Origin: Microvirga lotononidis
GTDB lineage: Bacteria; Pseudomonadota; Alphaproteobacteria; Rhizobiales; Beijerinckiaceae
NCBI RefSeq assembly: GCF_034627025.1
Contig: NZ_CP141048.1
Location: forward strand, 1,810,001-1,874,000
DNA: 64,000 bases
Direction: 5' to 3'
Under the pieces are notes generated by a model. It was given only the letters and a program-made list of their open reading frames with translations, had not been told where the DNA came from and searched no databases. A program made the translations under genes and the position numbers. How positions within the stretch are numbered: the stretch's first letter is position 1; each line of letters starts with the position of its first letter. Shown here one piece after another: positions 16,756-59,153 of the stretch.

Positions 16756-17101
16756 GAACAAAGTGAGAACATAACATCACGCTTCCCACACCCGCCGCGT
16801 CATCACCTCCCCGGACTTGATCCGGGGATCAGACCCCGCCACCCACGTGTTCCAGCCACGGCAAAAGGCGTGGGTGGCCGCACTTGGTGCGGCCATGACG
16901 TTCAGGATGTCATTCCCGGCCGGAGCGCAGCGCAGGGGGAGGAAATCCACCCGCGCAGCGCTTGATCGTGGATCCCCTTCCCGGCCTACGGCCGCCGGGA
17001 ACGACACCGAGCGGCTCTTCCAAGCGCGATGCCCGACAGGCCCGGCTTTGCCGTCCCGATCTTTCGTGCTCTATCCAAGGGAGCAAAGAAACCGCAGGTC
17101 C

Positions 17102-33496: not shown

Positions 33497-33572
33497 TTCT
33501 GTTCTTGATGCGTTCTTAGGAGCGGCAAACGGCTGCGCTGACAGAATCGACCTGTCAGGGCAGATTGCGGAC

Positions 33573-47114: not shown

Positions 47115-48557
47115 CTATTCCGCAGCGAGAGGCAGCTCCCCGGTCTCCAGGTCGGCCTTCGCGAGATCGTGAATGCGGCGCAGGTCGTTCAGGAACGCCT
47201 CGTAGGCCTCCCGCCTGGTCGCCTCGTCGGGCAGGCGCAGCAGATAGGACGGGTGCACGGTGACGTAGCCTTCGTAGGGCCCGAACCGGGCCCTCCCGCG
47301 CGAACGGGTGATCGGCGTCGCTTTGCCCGTCAGCGCCAGAAGCGCCGTCGCTCCGAGCGCCACGACGAGCTTGGGCTTCACCAGTTCGAGCTCCTTCATC
47401 AGCCAGGGCCGGTAATGCTTCACCTCGCCGGCCGTGGGCTTGGAATGGATGCGCCGGTGCCCGCGCTGCTCGAACTTGAAATGCTTCACCGCATTGGTGA
47501 GATAGGCATGCTCGCGGTCGATGCCGGCTTCCTTCATGGCCTTGGTCAGGAGCTTGCCGGCGGGGCCCACGAAGGGGCGGCCCTGCAGGTCCTCCTGGTC
47601 GCCCGGCTGCTCGCCGACGAACACGAGCTCGGCATGGGCCGGGCCTTCGCCGAACACCGCCTGGGTCGCGCCGGGCACGAGGGGGCCGGCCTTGGCGATG
47701 ATGGCGTTGAGGTCTTCCAGGGTCTTCGGCTCCTGATCCCACATGGCCTCAAGAGCACGCTCGGGGGTGCGTTTGGCGGGCATCGTCGCCTCCTGTTCGA
47801 TCATCCGTTCAACGCGCCGGGAGGCGGTTTGGATCAGGCCGGGAATCGCCGCGGTCTCGGGCATGTTGCGCCAGTACTTCTTCGGCATTTCGGCCCGCAT
47901 GGCGGTGGGGTTGACCCGGGCAGGGTTGAACACGCTCTCGTAATAGCCGCGCCATCCTTCCTCGAAACTGTCCCCGGAGGGGGCATCGTCGCGCTGCCCC
48001 GGCGGGCCGAAGGTCAGGGCCCGGCGGTCCCAGCGCGCCGAGCCGATGGGCGTGAGGATCGTCCAGTCCATGGAGCGGAAGCGGTCGACGAAGAAGGGGG
48101 CCGCCGCCTCCAGGATGAAATGCTCGGGCTCGAACCAGGCGGCGAAGCGCTCGAGGTCCTCGCCCGGCATCCGCCGGAAGCGCACGAAGGCATGCATCTT
48201 GTGCAGGTCGCGGCGGACGGACCGTGCCATCAGGTCGATGCGGTGCACGAGCGGGTCGGTCGCGACATCGAGCAGATCCCGCTCGCCGTTCAGCACCCGC
48301 CAGACGAGCTGGTAGAGCAAGGCGTAGCGTTCAGGGTCGCTGTGGCAGACCACGTGCTCGATCAGCCGCGCCACGCCCTTCGGGATCGTGACCGGAGGCG
48401 CATCGCCGATGGATTCCTCCCCGAACAGGCCGGGCGCGTCGTCGATCACGAAGACCACGTGCTGCGGCGCCAGTTCCTCGGCGATCAGGCGCCGCACCGA
48501 CTGGCGGAAGGTGTGGAGATCCGCGCCGGCTCTGAGGGTGATGCGGTGGAGGGTCAT
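47115..48557 (-). CDS. DUF4130-UdgX-like uracil-DNA glycosylase fusion
   Basis: 480 residues, two domains. About 1-260 is the DUF4130/TIGR03915 probable DNA metabolism domain (RMPGEDLERFAAWFEPEHFIL, ERMIEQEATMPAKRTPERALE). About 285-460 is a family-4-like UDG: GEQPGDQED (316-324), LTNAVKHFKF, the UdgX-type loop GHRRIHSKP with H371, and VHPSYLLR. In UdgX that His forms a covalent bond to uracil-excised DNA. Oddly, the UDG domain has no cysteine, so the usual [4Fe-4S] ligands are absent. AGAGGAA precedes ATG 48557. Partner of the radical-SAM gene upstream. Confidence 0.88.
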   Translation of the reverse strand: MTLHRITLRAGADLHTFRQSVRRLIAEELAPQHVVFVIDDAPGLFGEESIGDAPPVTIPKGVARLIEHVVCHSDPERYALLYQLVWRVLNGERDLLDVATDPLVHRIDLMARSVRRDLHKMHAFVRFRRMPGEDLERFAAWFEPEHFILEAAAPFFVDRFRSMDWTILTPIGSARWDRRALTFGPPGQRDDAPSGDSFEEGWRGYYESVFNPARVNPTAMRAEMPKKYWRNMPETAAIPGLIQTASRRVERMIEQEATMPAKRTPERALEAMWDQEPKTLEDLNAIIAKAGPLVPGATQAVFGEGPAHAELVFVGEQPGDQEDLQGRPFVGPAGKLLTKAMKEAGIDREHAYLTNAVKHFKFEQRGHRRIHSKPTAGEVKHYRPWLMKELELVKPKLVVALGATALLALTGKATPITRSRGRARFGPYEGYVTVHPSYLLRLPDEATRREAYEAFLNDLRRIHDLAKADLETGELPLAAE

Positions 48558-48596
48558 GGGTTTCCTCTTGTCATCCTGGAGGGGCACGTCTTCTGT

Positions 48597-48718
48597 CGTC
48601 ATCGCCGGCCTTGTGCAGGTGATCCCGATTTATGAGGCGCCGCGCTTCTCCTGATCGGGATGGCCGGGAGTGCCGGTCTCACGATCTCGGTCTTGCTGCG
48701 CAGTCCCGGGATGACAGT
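48597..48718. repeat. GTCATC-type intergenic inverted repeat
   Basis: The outer ends GTCATCGCCGG and CCCGGGATGAC are imperfect inverted arms, with GATCCCGAT and GATCGGGAT nested inside. It fills most of the 172 bp between the radical-SAM and UdgX-like genes, so an mRNA spanning both would carry it as a structure. Confidence 0.6.
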
Positions 48719-48729
48719 CGCAGGTCGGC

Positions 48730-49944
48730 TCACCCGAACAGGCTCAGCTGTTCCGGCTTCTCGACCAGCCGCTCGCGCAGGCCGAGGGAATCGAGCTTCG
48801 CTTTCGGGTGGTGGTCGGCCGTGATGAGGAAGGGTCTGGCGCGCTTCAGCCCCGAGGTGAGGCGAGCCACGTCCTCCAGGCGCAGCGTCGTGTGCTTTCG
48901 CGCCACCACGATCTTGTCCACCGCCCGCGCGCCGAGGCCCGGGACGCGCAGCAGCATCTCGCGCTCGGCCCGGTTCACGTCGACGGGAAAGCGGTGGCGG
49001 TTCCTGAGCGCCCAGGCGAGCTTCGGGTCGATGTCGAGGTCGAGCATGCCCTTGTCGGTCCCGGTGGCGATCTCGTCCACGTCGAAGCCGTAATAGCGCA
49101 GCAGCCAATCGGCCTGGTACAGCCTGCTCTCGCGCATCAGCGGCGGCGACTTCAGGGGCAGGATGGCGCTGGAATCCGGAATCGGGCTGAAGGCGGAGTA
49201 ATAGACGCGCTTCATGGCGTAGTGACCATAAAGCTTGGCCGAGGTGCGCAGCACGTCCGCGTCCGTGGTGTCGTCCGCGCCGACGATCATCTGGGTGGTC
49301 TGGCCGGCCGGCGAGAAATGGCGACGCTCCTCGCGGGCCTCCTCGATGCGTTCGAACATCTGCGCCATGGCGGTCTCGATGGAGGCGCCGTCCTTCTCCG
49401 GTGCCAGCCGCTCCAGGCTCTTCTCCGTCGGCAGTTCCAGATTGATCGACAGCCGGTCGGCCCACAGGCCCGCCTCCTCGATGAGCCAGGGACTCGCCTC
49501 GGGAATGGTCTTCAGGTGGATGTAGCCGCGAAAGCCGTGGTCGCGGCGCAGCTTCTTGGCCACCAGCAGCATCTGCTCCATGGTGTAGTCCGGCGAGCGG
49601 ATGATGCCGGACGAGAGGAACAGCCCCTCGATGTAGTTGCGCTTGTAGAACTCGACCGTGAGCGTCACCACCTCGTCGACCGAGAACTTCGCCCGTTTCA
49701 CGTTGGACGAGCGCCGGTTCACGCAATAGGCGCAGTCGAACAGGCAGTAATTGGTCAGCAGGATCTTCAACAGCGAGACGCAGCGCCCGTCGGGCGTGTA
49801 GGCATGACAGATGCCGCTGCCCTCCGTCGAGCCCAGGCCTCCCATGTCGGCCTTCCGCTTGGGGGCGCCGGAGGAGGAGCAGGAGGCATCGTATTTCGCC
49901 GCGTCCGCCAGGATGCGCAGCTTCTTGGCAAGCTTCTCGTCCAT
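48730..49944 (-). CDS. Putative DNA modification/repair radical SAM protein (TIGR03916 type)
   Basis: 404 residues. The radical-SAM cluster motif Cx3Cx2C is CLFDCAYC (cysteines 67, 71, 74). Other marks are LKILLTNY, NYIEGLFLSSGIIRSPDYTM and YIHLKTIPEASPW. A helix-hairpin-helix DNA-binding unit is near the C-terminus (LLRVPGLGARAVDKIVVAR), and the protein ends QLSLFG. Extra cysteines near residue 22 and at 46-55 could bind another cluster. This family always travels with the DUF4130/UDG protein, as here. The reaction is unknown. ATG 49944 has GGAAGA upstream; a LexA-type box lies 18 bp before it. Confidence 0.9.
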   Translation of the reverse strand: MDEKLAKKLRILADAAKYDASCSSSGAPKRKADMGGLGSTEGSGICHAYTPDGRCVSLLKILLTNYCLFDCAYCVNRRSSNVKRAKFSVDEVVTLTVEFYKRNYIEGLFLSSGIIRSPDYTMEQMLLVAKKLRRDHGFRGYIHLKTIPEASPWLIEEAGLWADRLSINLELPTEKSLERLAPEKDGASIETAMAQMFERIEEAREERRHFSPAGQTTQMIVGADDTTDADVLRTSAKLYGHYAMKRVYYSAFSPIPDSSAILPLKSPPLMRESRLYQADWLLRYYGFDVDEIATGTDKGMLDLDIDPKLAWALRNRHRFPVDVNRAEREMLLRVPGLGARAVDKIVVARKHTTLRLEDVARLTSGLKRARPFLITADHHPKAKLDSLGLRERLVEKPEQLSLFG

Positions 49945-49961
49945 GGGTCTTCCGCAGAATT

Positions 49962-49976
49962 GTTCGTGTTTTGTTC
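49962..49976. promoter_or_regulatory. LexA-type SOS box (GTTC-N7-GTTC)
   Basis: Plus strand GTTC-gtgtttt-GTTC; read toward the gene it is GAAC-aaaacac-GAAC. This exactly matches the direct-repeat LexA operator of alphaproteobacteria, including the A/T-rich spacer. It ends 18 bp upstream of the radical-SAM start codon. Confidence 0.75.
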
Positions 49977-50208
49977 TAGCATGGGGATGGGCCATTGGCG
50001 AGGCCCGGAACAGGGGCGGGAGGTCGCATCCGATCCCGATGCCGGAGGATATGGCAGGATAGTGGTGCGGGCGGGACGATCCCGTGCAGGACCTCCCTCG
50101 AAAGACCCGAAGAACAGGTCGCTCAAGTCTAACTGTGCTCTAATTCTCTCCTCTGATGATGCCGGGTGAAGGATTTCGGGAACAACCCGGCCGTCAAAGG
50201 AGGATACG

Positions 50209-50583
50209 ATGCGCTTATCTCATCTCGGAGTCGTGCTCGCTCTCGGCTCCCTGCTCGCCTCGCCGGTTTTCGCACAAACCGCCGCTCCGGGCACCGCCAC
50301 GCCCGGCGCCGCCGCGAAGCCGCCGATGACCAGCACGGCTCCTTCGACCGGGGCCGCCAAGCCGATGCCGAGCACGACATCGTCCACCAGCGCGCTCATC
50401 GACATCAACAGCGCGTCTAAGGACGAACTCGACAAGCTGCCCCAGATCGGCGCGGCCCGGGCGGATGCGATCATCAAGGGCCGCCCCTATCGGGCCAAGA
50501 ACGAGCTCGTGGACAAGAAGATCATTCCGCAGAACGCCTACGATGCGATCAAGGATCGGATCATCGCCCATCAGAAATCCTGA
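50209..50583 (+). CDS. ComEA-like helix-hairpin-helix exported protein
   Basis: 124 residues with a signal peptide (LSHLGVVLALGSLLASPVFAQ), a low-complexity Ala/Pro/Thr linker of about 40 residues, and one ComEA-type HhH unit (IDINSASKDELDKLPQIGAA then ADAIIKGRPYRAKNEL). AAAGGAGGATACG precedes the ATG. ComEA binds DNA during uptake, but this short stand-alone form is widespread in alphaproteobacteria and its role is unproven. It ends at a strong terminator. Confidence 0.87.
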   Translation: MRLSHLGVVLALGSLLASPVFAQTAAPGTATPGAAAKPPMTSTAPSTGAAKPMPSTTSSTSALIDINSASKDELDKLPQIGAARADAIIKGRPYRAKNELVDKKIIPQNAYDAIKDRIIAHQKS

Positions 50584-57940: not shown

Positions 57941-59134
57941 TCACACGTCCAGCAGGGCCTGCCATTCCTTCGGCGCGGTGATGCTGCCGAGGTTGAGCCA
58001 TTGGGCCATCAGGCGAAGCTCCTCGCCGAGAGCGGGAGCGATCTCGTCCTGCGCCGCTGAGGCTTCCGGGTGGATCGAGTGGACGATGAGGTTGCCCGCC
58101 GCCCGGTCGGCCTTGAGGTCCACGCGGGCGACGATCCTTTCGCCGAGCACGAAGGGCAGGCAGTAATAGCCGAATTCCCGCTTCTCGGCCGGCGTGTATA
58201 TCTCGATCCGGTACCGGAAGTCGAACAGGCGCTCCGTGCGGGTGCGCTCCCAGACGATGGGATCGAAGGGCGATACGAGGGCCCGGGCCTCGACCCGGCG
58301 GGGGAGTTTGGCCTGCGGGTCGAGATAGACCGGCCCGCTCCAGCCTTCGACCGTGACGGGCACGAGATCGCCGGCCTCCACCAATTCGGGAATGCGGACC
58401 TTCGCATCCTGCGGCTCCAGGCGAAAATAGTCGCGCAGGCAGCGCTCCGACGCGATGCCGAGCGCCCGGATAGAGTGCCGCAGCAATTCGCGTTGCGCCT
58501 CGTCGGCCGAGGGTGTGGGGACGTTCAGGATGTCCGAAGGCAGAACCCGCTCCGGCAGATCGTAGATGCGCTCGAAGCCGCGCCGGGTTGCGGTGGTGAC
58601 CTCGCCGGCCCAGAACAGCCATTCCAGGGCCCGCTTGCCGTCGCTCCATCCCCACCAGGAGCCCTGTCCCTTATGCCCTCCGGAAAGCTCGCCCGCGGCC
58701 ATGGGGCCCTGTGTTGCGATCTCGCGGCGCACCTCCTCGATGAAGGCACGCTTTTCCTGCCCGAACTTGGCGAGCCCCCCATAGATGCCCTCGCCCCGCC
58801 TGGCGCGTTCCATCCGCCAGCGGAAGACGGGATGCAGGTCGAGCCGGATCAGCGAGGCCTCGTGGCCCCAGTACTCGAAGGTCTCGCGCTTCCTGGCGTG
58901 ATAGGCGGCCTTCTCGAGAAGATCGCGGTCATAGGCGCCGATCCGCGAGAAGAGCGGCATGTATTGGGCCCGGACCAGCACGTTGACCGAATCGATCTGC
59001 AGGAGGTGCGAGCGTTGCAGCACGCGGCTCAAGTGCCGCCGCGACGTGGATGCGGGCCGGACTTCATGGAGCCCTTGCGCGGCGAGCGCGATGCGACGGG
59101 CCTGGGCGAGACTGAGCTTGGTACGGGGTGCCAT
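57941..59134 (-). CDS. ycaQ: YcaQ-type DNA glycosylase (HTH_42 winged-helix protein)
   Basis: 397 residues of the YcaQ/AlkX/AlkZ family, DNA glycosylases that unhook alkylated bases and interstrand crosslinks. The catalytic QxD motif is Q46-I-D48 in LLQIDSVNVL, followed by PLFSRIGAYD. Later family marks are FEYWGHEASLI, WSDGKRALEWLFWAGEV, SPFDPIVWERTRTERLFDF and YCLPFVLGERIVARVD. The protein carries three winged-helix-like domains in the family. A LexA-type GTTC-N7-GTTC box lies 5 bp upstream of the ATG, suggesting SOS control. Confidence 0.92.
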   Translation of the reverse strand: MAPRTKLSLAQARRIALAAQGLHEVRPASTSRRHLSRVLQRSHLLQIDSVNVLVRAQYMPLFSRIGAYDRDLLEKAAYHARKRETFEYWGHEASLIRLDLHPVFRWRMERARRGEGIYGGLAKFGQEKRAFIEEVRREIATQGPMAAGELSGGHKGQGSWWGWSDGKRALEWLFWAGEVTTATRRGFERIYDLPERVLPSDILNVPTPSADEAQRELLRHSIRALGIASERCLRDYFRLEPQDAKVRIPELVEAGDLVPVTVEGWSGPVYLDPQAKLPRRVEARALVSPFDPIVWERTRTERLFDFRYRIEIYTPAEKREFGYYCLPFVLGERIVARVDLKADRAAGNLIVHSIHPEASAAQDEIAPALGEELRLMAQWLNLGSITAPKEWQALLDV

Positions 59135-59138
59135 GGGC

Positions 59139-59153
59139 GAACAATACCGGAAC
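59139..59153. promoter_or_regulatory. LexA-type SOS box (GTTC-N7-GTTC) before ycaQ
   Basis: Plus strand GAAC-aataccg-GAAC; on the gene strand it reads GTTC-cggtatt-GTTC. It exactly matches the alphaproteobacterial LexA direct-repeat operator. It ends 5 bp before the ycaQ start codon, where a bound repressor would block initiation or early elongation. Confidence 0.65.

Follow-up and report, generated by a model that had tools for sequence, protein, structure and literature searches.

The radical-SAM operon and the box in front of it

The window analysed here, a 64-kb stretch of the Microvirga lotononidis genome, contains a two-gene operon on its minus strand. The first gene encodes a radical-SAM protein of family TIGR03916, the second a partner in which a DUF4130 domain is fused to a UdgX domain, related to uracil-DNA glycosylases (UDG). 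An exact match to the alphaproteobacterial LexA motif precedes the pair; judging from its position and conservation, it is very probably a working LexA operator that controls both genes. The features of the locus are:

49962..49976, minus strand: putative LexA-type operator GAACAAAACACGAAC, with the GTTC-N7-GTTC pattern, kept in 145/151 unique alphaproteobacterial orthologue promoters
48730..49944, minus strand: radical-SAM protein TIGR03916 (rSAM_link_UDG), 404 amino acids; NCBIfam, Pfam Radical_SAM, CxxxCxxC
48892..48984, minus strand: helix-hairpin-helix (HhH)-like segment, radical-SAM residues 321-351; PF12836 at 20.8 bits, short of its gathering score (27)
47115..48602, minus strand: partner, a TIGR03915/DUF4130 and TIGR03914/UdgX fusion, 495 amino acids, by profile matches; translation could equally well begin at 48557
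47853..48521, minus strand: DUF4130/TIGR03915 domain, residues 28-250; 194.9 bits against a cut-off of 112.25
47172..47846, minus strand: UdgX domain, residues 253-477; GEQPG motif A, RRIH loop, HPSYLLR motif B

On the plus strand the box reads GTTCGTGTTTTGTTC, an exact GTTC-N7-GTTC, just as an earlier note on this DNA had reported; read towards the genes it is GAAC-N7-GAAC. The same note had put it 18 bp before the start, which we correct to 17 nucleotides (nt) from the ATG at 49944. The conserved beginning of the radical-SAM gene, MDEKLAKKLRILADAAKYD, lies at this position, and 13 aligned orthologues start near 49944, not at 49995, from which an alternative, longer reading frame would span the box.

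The gene identities proposed earlier, a TIGR03916 radical-SAM protein with a DUF4130/UDG partner, agree with the NCBIfam and Pfam scores. The first protein reaches 564.3 bits against the TIGR03916 cut-off of 343.5 (NCBIfam), and its CxxxCxxC cluster motif is C67-C71-C74. Three more conserved cysteines, C22, C46 and C55, lie outside this motif; all 194 homologues, among them 2 duplicates, show the six-cysteine pattern, and the additional three suggest a second iron-sulfur cluster. In the structural model, the span that holds them (residues 20-55) has a predicted local confidence (pLDDT) below 50. The proteins closest to those of the operon come from Microvirga.

The UdgX domain of the partner carries motif A (GEQPG), an R-loop with the reactive histidine and motif B (HPS). 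This histidine occurs in 77 of 79 UdgX domains, the other two being unaligned there, and GEQPG in 75 of the 79; H386, H450 and P451 are invariant across 37 aligned fusions. In a structure search with the partner, the UDG domain filled the match list. The two genes are separated by a spacer of ~170 nt (48558-48729), the middle of which matches dispersed repeats of the genome at ~75-90%; in Microvirga pudoricolor (L187) the operon genes overlap as ATGA.

Conservation and change of the operator

Orthologous loci were gathered in two sets. Set 1 holds the matches over the TIGR03916 cut-off in 289 alphaproteobacterial genomes (22 loci) and, for the phylum, in 397 genomes (103 loci, 10 of which also belong to the 22), which gives 80 alphaproteobacterial and 35 other loci. 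A TIGR03916 match, which may or may not reach the cut-off, was also seen in Caulobacter vibrioides. Set 2 consists of the top 80 named loci from a list limited in length: 73 are alphaproteobacterial, with one 'Proteobacteria' metagenome-assembled genome counted among them, 6 are gammaproteobacterial and counted apart, and L198, whose start region was not found, was dropped. A box was scored where GAAC-N7-GAAC or its complement lies in the 160 nt that precede the conserved YDxSC codon.

Such a box is present in 78 of the 80 alphaproteobacterial loci of set 1, our own genome included (misses: L034, L082), and in 69 of the 73 of set 2 (misses: L204, L239, L240, L261). Without 2 duplicates, the scan of orthologous promoters that the earlier note had proposed finds it in 145 of 151 unique promoters, at spacing 7 only. 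In the same 151 promoters, spacings 0-6 and 8-15 give 0-5 matches each, and with the half-site reversed, spacing 7 yields 4. Control windows of 160 nt contain the box in 0 of 1058 cases inside genes and in 13 of 3885 in other flanks. The median gap between the box and the nearest in-frame start is 6 nt (143 promoters); from there, a bound repressor would plausibly block transcription.

The M. lotononidis genome encodes one LexA over the cut-off (184.4 bits vs 110.95), and the same type of box, GAACACAGCAAGAAC, stands upstream of lexA itself, its first nucleotide lying 77 nt ahead of the matched start. There are boxes, too, in front of recA, ssb, dnaB and a YrrC-type helicase gene (ssb and the helicase were identified from short fragments).

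Outside the Alphaproteobacteria the operator differs. Among 41 other Pseudomonadota loci, the Escherichia coli-type box CTGT-N8-ACAG occurs in 25 and GAAC-N7-GAAC in none, with 0-1 matches for other CTGT spacings; CTGT-N8-CCAG is found in 5 further loci. The dyad GTCTCA-N5-TGAGAC is exact in 6 loci (Xanthomonas, Pseudoxanthomonas and family f169) and has one mismatch in 1, by eye; a pattern scan confirmed 3 of these operon sites. Four of the 41 have no recognised site before the operon (L080, L118, L226, L251). No LexA over the cut-off was found in the genomes of L034, L082, L080 and L118, in 3 of which the LexA matches span the C-terminal part only. The operon promoter may keep damage control while its operator changes between clades.

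In 113 of the 115 loci of set 1 and in all 79 named loci, the radical-SAM gene is followed by a DUF4130 frame in the same orientation. UdgX is fused to this frame in 78 of the 115, with a separate frame in 1, and in 69 of the 79. The available stretch shows DUF4130 without UdgX at 34 of the 115 loci; in two of them, L039 and L119, the frame runs off the end of the stretch. The remaining 32 have the exact clade-typical box in 23 cases, a one-mismatch box in 5 and none in 4, and SOS-type control thus seems to follow the radical-SAM and DUF4130 core, whether or not UdgX is fused to it. Of the two-gene system that the earlier note described as assumed to act on DNA, the pair stands; its UdgX domain is not the constant part, the box being kept at most UdgX-less loci.

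Among 40 genomes of f169, presumably the Xanthomonas family, 26 contain the dyad GTCTCA-N5-TGAGAC, with 1-3 copies each; the reversed control occurs in none of the 40. The 51 dyad sites examined lie before a DEAD/DEAH helicase gene (15), the radical-SAM gene (10), mraZ (6), uvrA (2), recA (2), dnaB (2) and an AAA ATPase gene (1), with 13 unassigned; UvrA, RecA, the helicase and the ATPase were named by Pfam, MraZ and DnaB by eye. The helicase has an HRQ1 winged-helix match below the cut-off. Dyad-bearing loci are L267-L274, L307-L331 and L346-L363.

In eight dyad-bearing genomes we inspected 12 lexA-like promoters by eye: 6 carry TTAG(T/C)AGTA.TACTA-type sites, 4 carry GTGTACAAATGTACAC, L332 has a palindrome related to these, and L333 shows neither site type. 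We did not adopt the dyad as a LexA site, since most lexA-like promoters of the same genomes carry these other sites. A diverged LexA as its reader is nonetheless conceivable, because degenerate dyads are found in the lexA-like promoters L343 (2 mismatches), L339 and L341 (3 each), which counts against a non-LexA reader, and because duplicated LexA proteins change their motif (PMC8565304). A literature search matched 37 papers; the 10 of them that were listed do not contain the letters TGAGAC.

A probable damage-inducible operon and its alternatives

In an undamaged cell, LexA would sit on the box beside the start codon and keep the two-gene operon low. RecA filaments on damaged DNA would then cause LexA to cleave itself, and the radical-SAM enzyme and the DUF4130-UdgX protein would be made; LexA binding and induction are steps that we infer. 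With less certainty, the radical-SAM enzyme may, together with DUF4130, use radical chemistry to act on a damaged base or on some related lesion in DNA. The fused UdgX, where present, may covalently capture uracil or abasic sites through H386, as reported for H109 of Mycobacterium smegmatis UdgX; this too is less certain.

Several observations weigh against this reading. No sigma-70-type promoter was recognised beside the box in a scan of 49900-50250. The exact box is missing from 6 of the 151 alphaproteobacterial promoters, L240 being without even a near match (by eye), and the genomes counted, being related, are not independent samples. Luteibacter (L226) and Rhodanobacter (L251) encode LexA, yet their operons have no recognised box. 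Co-transcription in M. lotononidis is assumed across the partly repeat-derived spacer, and the best stretch covers the DUF4130 part in 0 of 29 matched PDB sequences. Finally, the bare pattern is common: 241 exact matches genome-wide vs 162 for the reversed pattern, and 4 in the window vs a mean of 1.52 in shuffles, 10 of 100 of which reach 4. One sequence, GTTCTCACTTTGTTC, accounts for 30 identical genome matches and inflates the genome-wide excess; all 14 copies inspected sit in one dispersed repeat, from which the 30 seem to derive, and for this reason the excess was rejected as independent evidence.

The pattern alone is therefore weak evidence, and it is position and conservation that convince. 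These frequencies would suit a chance match of a short direct repeat with no role, but its conservation at one spacing in 145 of 151 unique promoters, against 0 of 1058 gene-internal windows, speaks strongly against chance and makes this explanation highly improbable. A repressor other than LexA that uses the same half-sites is also quite improbable. It would find an analogy in the Xanthomonas relatives, where the operon dyad differs from the clear lexA sites and a non-LexA damage regulator is conceivable. However, the literature gives GTTC-N7-GTTC as the LexA motif of Alphaproteobacteria (PMC8565304), the same motif stands before lexA and recA in this genome, and the E. coli LexA box takes its place at 25 of the 41 other loci.

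Two further alternatives concern function. The authors of PMC8565304 suggest that the operon, under SOS control, mainly serves uracil base excision by its UDG domain, to make up for the mistakes of SOS polymerases. The frequent fusion of UdgX (78/115 and 69/79 named loci) and its reactive histidine (77/79) fit this suggestion. We nevertheless consider it unlikely as the main role, given the 34 of 115 loci where DUF4130 occurs without UdgX, 23 of the 32 assessable ones keeping the exact clade-typical box, and given that UdgX traps its product rather than turning over (PMC10359453).

It is likewise rather doubtful that the radical-SAM protein repairs photolesions in the manner of spore photoproduct lyase (SplB). 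A kinship of this sort has a parallel in the SplB-like radical SAM that, with DUF4130 and UDG, has been linked to the SOS and mutagenesis network by gene neighbourhood (PMC3765255). Against it, TIGR03916 is the only NCBIfam match at E <= 0.001, SplB not being among the matches, and no PDB relative by sequence was found at E <= 0.01. The Foldseek matches of the model are led by MgmA, MtaB, biotin synthase, MiaB, RimO and HydE, and those of VIA-align by HydE and lipoyl synthase; SplB is not among the 50 VIA-align matches listed, but these fold comparisons speak neither for nor against it.

We take COG4277 to be the TIGR03916-type radical-SAM/HhH family. SOS regulation of the operon is already known in kind: control of a COG1573-COG4277 operon has been predicted for Bacteroidetes, in a paper that cites reports of it for Verrucomicrobia and Alphaproteobacteria (a Caulobacter SOS paper), with references to Erill 2016 and da Rocha 2008 (PMC8565304). 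That operon likewise has two genes, a UDG-superfamily member and LexA control; it is read there as uracil repair, whereas here control tracks radical-SAM plus DUF4130 over 151 alphaproteobacterial and 41 other promoters. The association in PMC3765255 involves the same domain types and an SOS/mutagenesis prediction; its basis is neighbourhood, and the passages concerned contain no operator analysis. UdgX of M. smegmatis (PMC10359453; PDB 6ajo and others) differs from ours, which is fused behind DUF4130 and shares its operon with a radical-SAM gene. The words 'SOS' and 'LexA' have 0 occurrences in the main texts of the two UdgX papers searched. No literature on the chemistry of the operon (UdgX with radical SAM and DUF4130, COG4277, TIGR names) was found in a search that left most subscription journals outside. 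The SOS box does lend regulatory support to a role in DNA damage, as the earlier note had argued, but this control is not new, being already in print (PMC8565304).

New, as far as we searched (few subscription journals), are the breadth of the control, the operator switch and the independence from UdgX. With rather more doubt than confidence, we suggest that the constant SOS-controlled unit is radical-SAM plus DUF4130 and not the uracil glycosylase. It would be a DNA-repair enzyme of wide distribution that acts on some lesion and has six conserved cysteines (for the radical-SAM cluster and perhaps for another iron-sulfur cluster). UdgX would be optional, and control would be kept through operator changes, exposing GTCTCA-N5-TGAGAC as an unassigned damage operator of Xanthomonas relatives. 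Broad comparative evidence places the uncharacterised TIGR03916 family in the DNA-damage response; its substrate can now be sought under SOS induction and with radical-SAM plus DUF4130 as the minimal unit. The clade-wise operator switch offers a natural experiment in which regulon members are kept while repressor recognition shifts; the operon may also serve as a probe for new damage operators, as in the Xanthomonas relatives.

Other boxes and neighbouring genes

Further copies of the pattern lie in the window. At 16756-16770, a copy of the dispersed repeat contains a perfect GAAC-N7-GAAC, GAACAAAGTGAGAAC; such repeat boxes could titrate LexA, or be meaningless. Another exact GTTC-N7-GTTC match, GTTCTTGATGCGTTC, is found at 33501-33515. 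On the other side of the box at 49962-49976, a divergent gene (50209-50583, plus strand) starts ~230 nt away and encodes a small protein that looks secreted and has a helix-hairpin-helix motif (PF12836, 40.6 bits); in appearance it is ComEA-like.

A second LexA-type box, GTTCCGGTATTGTTC (59139-59153), lies 4 nt before the gene for an AlkZ-like DNA glycosylase (57941-59134, minus strand; PF06224, 235.7 bits). We rejected this gene as a broadly conserved regulon member, the box being present in 3 of 30 order-level loci, our own included (30 of 41 matches were scanned; L295 was misplaced in the scan). A few real cases of LexA boxes at AlkZ-like genes are possible, because other spacings gave 0 of 30.
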